Source: a bacterium
GTDB taxonomy: Bacteria > Bacteroidota > Ignavibacteria > Kapaibacteriales > UBA2268
DNA length: 64,000 nucleotides
Assembly: GCA_030431515.1 (NCBI GenBank)
Contig: JAUIIX010000007.1
Coordinates: 1-64,000 of the forward strand
Reading direction: 5' to 3'
This document shows positions 22,827 to 25,900 of the stretch, one piece after another. Position 1 is the stretch's first letter; each line of letters begins with the position of its first letter. The translations under genes and the position numbers were made by a program. The notes under the pieces were generated by a model. The model searched no databases and was not told the origin of the DNA. It was given only the letters and a program-made list of their open reading frames with translations.

Positions 22827-22904
22827 ATGAGAATGCTAAATTCTACAAATTCGTTGCTAGGTAAGTCCTTATATATATATATATATATATATATATATGC
22901 GTAA
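22827..22904 (+). other. Out-of-frame signal-peptide leader of the T9SS protein (phase-off)
   Basis: An ATG at 22827 with GAGGTG seven bases upstream opens a 25-codon frame that runs through the TA tract into a TAA at 22902-22904. That stop overlaps the ATG at 22904 (TAATG). If the tract lost one TA unit, or gained two, the frame would join the downstream gene. The result would be a proper signal peptide: MRMLNSTNSLLGK, a Tyr/Ile hydrophobic core, and TTANA-Q as the cleavage site. Confidence 0.7.
22870..22898 (+). repeat. (TA)14 microsatellite inside the signal-peptide region
   Basis: 29 uninterrupted bases of alternating T and A. The tract encodes alternating Tyr-Ile codons in the leader frame. 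Its length sets whether the leader is in frame with the gene at 22904. Confidence 0.95.
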
Positions 22905-25900
22905 TGTTTGTTACAACTGCTAATGCTCAGATTATGTATAATAAGGTAAAGCCAGTAAGTTTGGAATCCCAATCTTTTAAACAAATTCAAGATTTACCTA
23001 TTATTGACTTTCCTGTGGAAGTTAATGGCTCGATGATGCAAAGCAATCTCAATTTAATTGTAAAAAACAAAGCAATTTTTGAATCTGCTAATGATAAGAA
23101 TATTGCCAGAATGATGATAAAAGTAAATGCTCAATCACTTGGTAATATAACTGTTAGTTTCAAAGATGTGCTTTTAGATAATAATTCTTACTGCATAGTT
23201 TATACTCAAGACCACCAAATAGTAGCTGGTCCAATTTATCAAAAATCAATAAATAATAATAAATTCACAATAATGAATATCCCCGCCTCTGAATTAGTCC
23301 TCGAAGTAATCTATAAATCAAAAAATGATTTCACATTAAAACTTGACGAAGTTTCATTTTCTTCATTGGTTAATTTAAAAGAAGTAAAGAGGAAAGAAAA
23401 GGTAAGGAATCAGTTGCTTTCAAGTTCTTGTGATGATTTTGGAGTTGTAAAGTATATTAATAATATTGTATCGACACCTAAATTAAAGTATGCTATTGAT
23501 TATTCAAAAGGTTGGTTTCCTTGTGATAGTAATAATCCTACTAATCATTATGAGCCATCTGGTTGTAGTTGGATAATTAGAGAACCATCTTTTGGTCATA
23601 GAGATATTTGGGATTATAGTAAATTATACCAAGCAAATGATTCTATATTTACTGAGTTTAAATCAAACAGATCATCTTGTGTAATTATGTTTCCAGCTGA
23701 TCCTAGCTGTGTATTAGATAGCCTTCAAGACAGCCTAATATTTGGACCAACTAACGGTACTTTAGTAAACATACCTACAAAAGGATGTGATTCTTCATTC
23801 GTAATAGGAATATCACATCAAGTAGGTGGTCCAAGAATTGATAGCTTATTTAATAGTGAGAATTTTAGAAGTAAAACTTTAGTTAGATTTAATTATCATT
23901 ATAAATATGGCAGACCCAACCACCTAATAAATGTAGAATGTAAGGCAAATGTAAATAATTTTGAAATTTGGAGAAGCACAATTGATTTTGATGAAGTGAT
24001 TGACTATCAAGGTGTTGATATTTTTGCTCAAACCAGTGGAGAGCTTTTCGAACCTATTATTCTGTCACTAAGGTGTAAACCATTTTTTAAAGAATATCAT
24101 TTGGGTTGGACGCGTCAAAATACTTTTGATTATTATGGTAATATTTATGATTTAAATTATGTTATTCCTGAAATCAGTAAAAATGTTTTTGTAATGGGGG
24201 CTAGAGATGGTTTATATCCAAGGTCATATTTTTCAAATTATAAAATAAGATCAGCTAATATTGGAATGTTTTATTTTGGAGATGAGAATGATACTATGAG
24301 TGTACAAGGGTGGTCTGGTGCTTCAATGTTGATTAATAATTATTTAAATAATGATATGCAAATATTAAAAGGAATCCTAAGTTATCATAATTGGTATCAG
24401 GACTCTAATACTAAAGTAGTATATGGGATTCCAAATGAAGAAGGGTACTTTGAAATGAGTTGCTCACAAAATGATTTTTATTATATATTAAGAACACATA
24501 GTTATTTTCCTAATAGCCCTGATAAAAGTATTTGGTCTTATTTTACTAATAATAATTTAATTCAAAAATTAAACTATGAGAATATATATGTTAAAGAATA
24601 TGCTGATTCTACAGCTGATTCTGTAATTTCAACATGGTCTGATGGGTTTTACTGGTACCCTTCCATGGAAAACAAAGAAAAATGTCCAAGTCCTGTTGAG
24701 CCAAATGAACCATGTGATTTTGATATTAATGATTACATTACTTACTCATATAATGGTGGAGAGGTATGTGTAAAAATAAGTAAGATACCAGCAAATAAAT
24801 TTCCTGATTCTACTGATTTACCTAAGGGTTATAGAATTTATCATAATTTCGGTGAACAAAAAACGATTGATTGGGACTCATTCCAAGATGGTCAAGATAT
24901 TTCTTTTCCAATTGTTTTTTGTATTGATAAATGTAGATTAGTATATTTGGCTTCATTAGGTAAAAATAAAGCTAAAATAGCAATTGATTTTTATGATGTA
25001 AATGGTAGAGTTTATAATAATCCAGGTTGTGACTCAGTAGAATTTGAGTTTGATATTAATTTATGCGAATTTATTGATTATTCTATTGAACCAATTTTTA
25101 AAAATGATTCATGTTGTACATATGAAGTAACTTTAGATTTTAATTCTTTTGATGATTGTGAATCATTTAACCCTGGCATGAATACTATTGATAGTATTTA
25201 TAATAGTGTTTTTAGTTTGTCTGATGGGTCTAATTCAATACTTTTATCAACTTTAGATGGATTTACTAAGACTGGAAATCAAATTAAATTTGAAATATCA
25301 AAATGTGAAGTTAGTGAAAACGATAGCACGCTTTATATTAGTTCTGATAATTTTGAATGTGAAATTGCTATAGATCTTACTGAATGTTCTAAATGTGCTT
25401 GTCCAGAAGATCATAATGATTGGCTAACCTTTGAGATAGCAGAAGGAGACTGTGATGGAGGAGGTTGTCTTGTTGACCTTAAATTAGATATTCCTCAATT
25501 ATATTCTTGCTATACGCATTATAGTATATCTTCAAATGGACAACAATCTATACCAGCAATAATCCCACCAAATGGTGAATTACAATTTCCACAAAGAAAC
25601 TGTATTAGTAAAGGTGATTATAAAACATTTAGAGTATATTTACGAAAAAGTGGTAGTTGGCTTCCTGATTCAAGTTGCTATATTGATAAATCTGTTTATT
25701 GTCCCATTAATTCATCTGTTGAGTCTTGCGTTCCAGATTGTGATTCAGTTGGATTTACAGAACGTGAGCTAGATTTTGATTTAATTGGTTGCCCTAATTG
25801 TAAAATTAAAGTTAAATATAGCTATAGAACGAATACTTGTTATGTCACACCAACGCAAGATATTCAAATATTGTCAATGGAAGAAGTTAGTGACCCTTCT

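Follow-up and report, generated by a model that had tools for sequence, protein, structure and literature searches.

Organisation of the locus

The window, that is, the whole 64,000-nucleotide stretch of DNA analysed here, comes from an uncultured member of the Kapabacteria and contains a large gene for a predicted T9SS cargo protein, preceded by a short leader reading frame that runs into an uninterrupted TA dinucleotide repeat. The features of this locus are given below by position and strand, with the basis of each in brackets; a slash marks a predicted cleavage site here and throughout.

22530-22645, + strand: dispersed intergenic repeat of ~110 bp, its ends imperfectly inverted, 5' of the cargo gene (16 further genome copies at 78-87% identity)
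22679-22729, + strand: 11-bp tandem repeat (AAATAATTTGG), 4.6 perfect copies, in the presumed promoter region (repeat search)
22816-22821, + strand: Shine-Dalgarno-like GAGGTG, 5 nt 5' of the ATG at 22827 (sequence)
22827-22904, + strand: leader ORF, putative signal-peptide n-region and start of the h-region, closed at the assembled length by TAA 22902-22904 (sequence, frame rebuild)
22870-22898, + strand: (TA)14.5 tract coding for alternating Tyr and Ile, the predicted hydrophobic core, and proposed slippage site (repeat search, shuffles, frame rebuild)
22904-22927, + strand: predicted signal-peptide end MFVTTANA, with an AXA cleavage site before Q at codon 22928-22930 (alignment to the points where the signal peptides of two homologues end)
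22904-26632, + strand: T9SS cargo gene, 1,242 aa with 47 Cys, mature start QIMYN (ORF; intact homologue in genome G020)
26408-26623, + strand: T9SS C-terminal sorting domain (CTD), PF18962 / TIGR04183 (profile matches; dN/dS about 0.10 against the copy on contig C113)
26637-28502, + strand: next gene, BNR/Asp-box protein (ORF; own Sec signal MFIFFILIFSNLSS/Q; weak T9SS tail)

Around its start, the leader reads TTTGAGGTGCTATT ATG AGA ATG CTA AAT TCT ACA AAT TCG TTG CTA GGT AAG TCC, and it continues at its 3' side as T(TA)14T GCG TAATG TTT GTT ACA ACT GCT AAT GCT CAG. The repeat is 29 bp long and 100% perfect. Translation from ATG 22827 gives MRMLNSTNSLLGKSLYIYIYIYIYA and a stop at TAA 22902-22904, which shares a base with the ATG at 22904 that opens the cargo gene and thereby forms a TAATG stop-start overlap.

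The 1,242-codon ORF of the cargo gene had a coding-like GC content by codon position (0.378/0.358/0.164), and its C-terminus matched Por_Secre_tail above both curated cut-offs (PF18962, 29.6 bits against a cut-off of 27; TIGR04183, 25.5 against 23), which places the protein among T9SS cargo with a type A CTD. This domain and the signal peptides of its homologues (see below) predict an exported or surface protein. Comparing the last 60 codons with the C113 duplicate yielded a dN of 0.093 and a dS of 0.918 (dN/dS about 0.10), a ratio indicating that the CTD is under purifying selection. The rest of the protein had no convincing Pfam, NCBIfam or solved-structure match, no credible PDB sequence match to the cargo was found, and the AlphaFold model was poor (pLDDT 33). 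A lysyl-endopeptidase-like pattern (GTLxN...H...GxSGS) might be seen in the middle of the homologues, but it had no tool support and no claim is made of it. The BNR/Asp-box gene begins 4 nt past the cargo gene and is probably part of the same operon; a similar gene is also found downstream of the homologue in genome G066.

Reading frames as a function of tract length

The region was rebuilt in silico at 3-19 TA units, and the reading frames were tabulated. Leader and gene fused into a single ORF only at 4, 7, 10, 13, 16 and 19 units (3k+1), while all other lengths ran into a stop within about 35 codons. The locus has the make-up of a contingency locus: a perfect, non-triplet short tandem repeat lies between n-region and cleavage site, and one length in three restores both frame and signal peptide, with the rest terminating early. 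At 13 units, the fused ORF comprised 1,267 aa with MRMLNSTNSLLGKSLYIYIYIYICVMFVTTANA as its signal part, and at 13 or 16 units MRMLNSTNSLLGKSL(YI)n..CVMFVTTANA/Q was joined to the whole ORF, with in-frame starts at 22827, 22833 and TTG 22854. With 12, 14 or 15 units, none of the ATG, GTG or TTG codons from position 22701 onward reached the gene in frame. The TA repeat encodes Tyr-Ile in either phase and never a stop, so that growth of the tract is tolerated.

The tract length is known from one assembly, which has 14 units and therewith an off length. Since no usable start exists at 14 units, ordinary starts give no signal peptide at the assembled length; read from the sequence, the Sec signal peptide of this T9SS cargo is absent as assembled and present at 13 or 16 units. 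The first-pass annotation, whose coordinates for tract, leader, ribosome-binding site and ORF proved exact to the base, had proposed that losing one unit or gaining two joins the frames and that the gene as assembled is off, or translated without export by reinitiation. The frame table bears out the arithmetic, with 13 and 16 units fusing and 14 lying outside the 3k+1 series with no alternative start.

By the same frame arithmetic, an mRNA shorter by one unit would be in frame, and a steady minor share of exported protein could arise from RNA polymerase or ribosomes slipping on the tract, with the DNA itself unchanged. However, slipping by the polymerase is known best from homopolymers, and a ribosome slipping by -1 on UAU/AUA codons would not be expected to re-pair, which leaves this reading highly improbable compared with a change of tract length in the DNA itself.

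Homologues carry a signal peptide at the position of the leader

The N-terminal region of the cargo was sought at the protein level in 60 genomes (the genome itself plus 59 relatives) and with a profile in 54 family genomes, and it was detected in two further genomes, Candidatus Kapaibacterium sp. SKW166 (G020), where the homologue is intact and 1,254 aa long, and G066. A scan of further assemblies for the homologue matched SKW166 only, and the cargo gene was absent from both same-genus genomes examined. In the G066 homologue, the frame is interrupted close to codon 140, next to a short run of A (L066, G066:C127, around 1719), by either a sequencing error or a real lesion.

The signal peptides of the homologues read MKKFFFSVFLVLNLPICIFS/QIMYN and MMKKLYLLIIVLIIPHYFALS/QIMYN (G020 and G066), begin 20-21 residues ahead of the mature Q, and lead into mature starts that align with that of the window gene (FS/QIMYN in G020, LS/QIMYN in G066 and ANA/QIMYN in the window). 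Because the homologous signal peptides end at the same residue, the alignment places a signal peptide at the position of the leader, with the TA tract within its predicted hydrophobic core. This agrees with the earlier description of a signal peptide split between the leader and a cleavage end (TTANA-Q) in the gene; the assignment of the gene to T9SS cargo in that description is borne out by the Por_Secre_tail match. Homologues lacking any leader upstream of the ATG at 22904 had been named as a finding that would refute the proposal, and in both homologues that share the N-terminus a signal peptide occupies precisely this position.

The core hydropathy over 12 residues was 2.48 for the fused peptide and 2.65 and 2.61 for the homologues, against 0.63 for the assembled-form stub MFVTTANA. 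The fused peptide also has Arg/Lys in its n-region, an AXA site, and Q at +1, the last being expected under the Bacteroidetes Q-rule (PMC5837995; a paper without mention of Kapabacteria). Its n-region, at 14-15 residues, exceeds those of the homologues in length and is less typical, and Tyr in the core of a signal peptide is unusual. The homologous signal peptides are ordinary and repeat-free, and the tract is consequently a non-conserved feature.

The TAATG overlap has the classic geometry of translational coupling and a (UA)n run is able to form a hairpin, so the protein might be made in the cytoplasm from ATG 22904, or the leader might be a regulatory upstream ORF coupled to the gene, its UA tract serving as an RNA element. 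Against this, a T9SS tail requires prior Sec export, the homologues begin well upstream of the mature Q with signal peptides, and the region folded no better than shuffled sequence (z -0.06); a tRNA was the only Rfam match in the window. I regard these variants as very unlikely.

Rarity of long TA tracts

The tract was reproduced in none of 100 dinucleotide-preserving shuffles of the window. Five TA loci of at least 20 bp were found in the 3.5-Mb genome, and one T-anchored TA tract of at least 20 bp in the 59 relatives (184.6 Mb), using a pattern that misses tracts starting with A on both strands. Across the phylum, 6 of 392 genomes, the present one included, had a TA tract of at least 24 bp, and none of the tracts elsewhere in the phylum was clearly inside a signal peptide. 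Among the five loci of the genome, the window tract is the only one within a reading frame that has a start codon ahead of it and a cleavage site behind it.

A shared family of TA tracts was considered and rejected, as the other four tracts of at least 20 bp lie outside signal peptides: those on contigs C124, C145 and C152 are intergenic, and that on C103, a phage-like contig, is located just 5' of an ATG. The C103 tract (L006, G000:C103, 1025-1053) consists of 29 bp of TA, stops 2 nt short of the ATG that opens an unknown gene, is a candidate 5' untranslated region element, and shares its contig with a gene for a phage head-scaffolding-like protein. The three intergenic tracts (L011, L012 and L014) measure 20-24 bp and have T9SS/BNR-type or cysteine-rich secreted genes as neighbours. 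Flanking sequence is common to L012 and L014, and part of it recurs inverted in L011.

Upstream repeats and a duplicate of the locus

The 11-bp array occurs at a single genome location, even with up to 2 mismatches allowed. A duplicate of the locus on contig C113 matches the upstream region 22542-22749 at 87%, with an alignment gap through the array and far fewer units. This alignment shows an array that differs in length between two copies, these being diverged duplicates and not cells of one population, and makes it a candidate for a second length-variable element. The C113 duplicate (L048, G000:C113:13000-20000) has retained the upstream region, the last ~70 cargo codons and the next gene, and lacks a stretch matching about 22750-26409, which amounts to the loss of a large inner part of the cargo gene.

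The ~110-bp repeat is present in 17 genome copies (L076-L092), 78-87% identical to the first, with window copies at 22530-22645 and 53241-53349. Its ends are imperfectly inverted (AAAATTACTAATTTTT ... AAAAATTAGTGATTTT), which makes it MITE-like, and no Rfam match was obtained for it. It probably lies outside the switch and is given as context only.

With the decayed C113 duplicate, which has lost most of the gene, and the broken frame of the G066 homologue, it is conceivable that the window gene is a recent pseudogene whose frame was broken by TA expansion, with no selection for switching back. Nevertheless, the 1,242-codon ORF has no other lesion, and a TA frameshift is inherently reversible, 'off' and 'dead' being indistinguishable in one genome. 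I consider decay rather improbable, and a reversible off state of an otherwise intact gene the preferable reading.

A proposed switch in a T9SS cargo signal peptide

The sequence makes it reasonably likely that the TA tract, lying within the signal-peptide region of a T9SS cargo protein, serves as a contingency switch at the level of translation. Slipped-strand mispairing at replication would alter the number of TA units and lead to different tract lengths within a population. With 13 or 16 units (3k+1), leader and gene would be read in one frame and the protein would be exported via Sec, cleaved by signal peptidase I at ANA/Q, and routed by its C-terminal sorting domain through the T9SS to the surface. 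At all remaining lengths, two out of every three, the leader would terminate early, and reinitiation at the overlapping TAATG could yield only a form devoid of signal peptide. This form would stay in the cytoplasm and would presumably be of no use there.

PCR stutter and consensus error readily affect dinucleotide tracts near 30 bp, and the assembly is a draft in 160 contigs. A miscounted tract, with a true length of 13 (or 16) units and a gene that is on behind a stable, repeat-containing signal peptide, would be in keeping with this and with the intact signal peptides of the homologues. Tracts of 29 bp are usually called right by consensus, however, the flanks are without sign of misassembly, and even a miscounted tract should have a higher mutation rate than other DNA. 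A miscount is therefore judged unlikely, if less so than the other alternatives, and a switch with its assembled copy in the off state is retained as the favoured reading. A scan of viral contigs for other tract lengths returned none. The genome encodes a full-length MutS1, which counts against frequent slippage; MutS1 slows slippage in tracts of such length without abolishing it.

If the 11-bp array additionally tunes the promoter, the TA switch in the cargo signal peptide could be one of two layers of phase variation acting on a secreted protein, and this in an uncultured lineage that is not known for host-adapted pathogens. This wider picture is plausible and falls somewhat short of probable.

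Comparison with known systems

Accounts of phase variation in Bacteroidota usually involve invertible DNA. In the titles and abstracts of open-access literature on phase variation with T9SS, simple repeats in Bacteroidetes and slippage in Flavobacterium, no repeat-driven switch acting via the signal peptide of a T9SS cargo was found. The first-pass annotation had called dinucleotide repeats inside the signal peptide of a T9SS substrate not known to be described, which does not hold for the principle itself: as is well known, CT dinucleotides in the signal-peptide region phase-vary the surface protein OipA of Helicobacter pylori, in which babA and sabA are likewise switched through slipped-strand mispairing (PMC10564699), and pentamers do the same in Neisseria opa (PMC3960869). 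The switch principle is thus known already, and only the combination of T9SS, Kapabacteria and TA appears to be new.

The window locus resembles oipA (CT)n in that a dinucleotide repeat lies in the region coding for a signal peptide, where a change in unit number shifts the frame and would turn a surface protein on or off. It differs in having TA rather than CT and in encoding a T9SS cargo with a CTD rather than an outer-membrane protein, and length variation has been observed in oipA, whereas it is inferred for the window locus. Neisseria opa, with (CTCTT)n in its leader peptide and slipped-strand frame switching of a surface protein, is similar in arrangement, but has a pentamer, forms a multi-gene family, and belongs to a different phylum and secretion route. 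The (TA)9-11 tract of Haemophilus influenzae hifA/hifB shares the TA unit, the slippage and the control of a surface structure (PMC2651432); there, the tract sits in the promoter and alters its spacing and hence transcription, while the window tract sits in the reading frame. The SKW166 homologue (L046) corresponds to the window gene over its length, in the end residue of its signal peptide and in its T9SS tail, but has an ordinary signal peptide and no repeat. If the proposed switch is true, the strategy of oipA and opa would have arisen independently with another repeat and another secretion route in an uncultured lineage.
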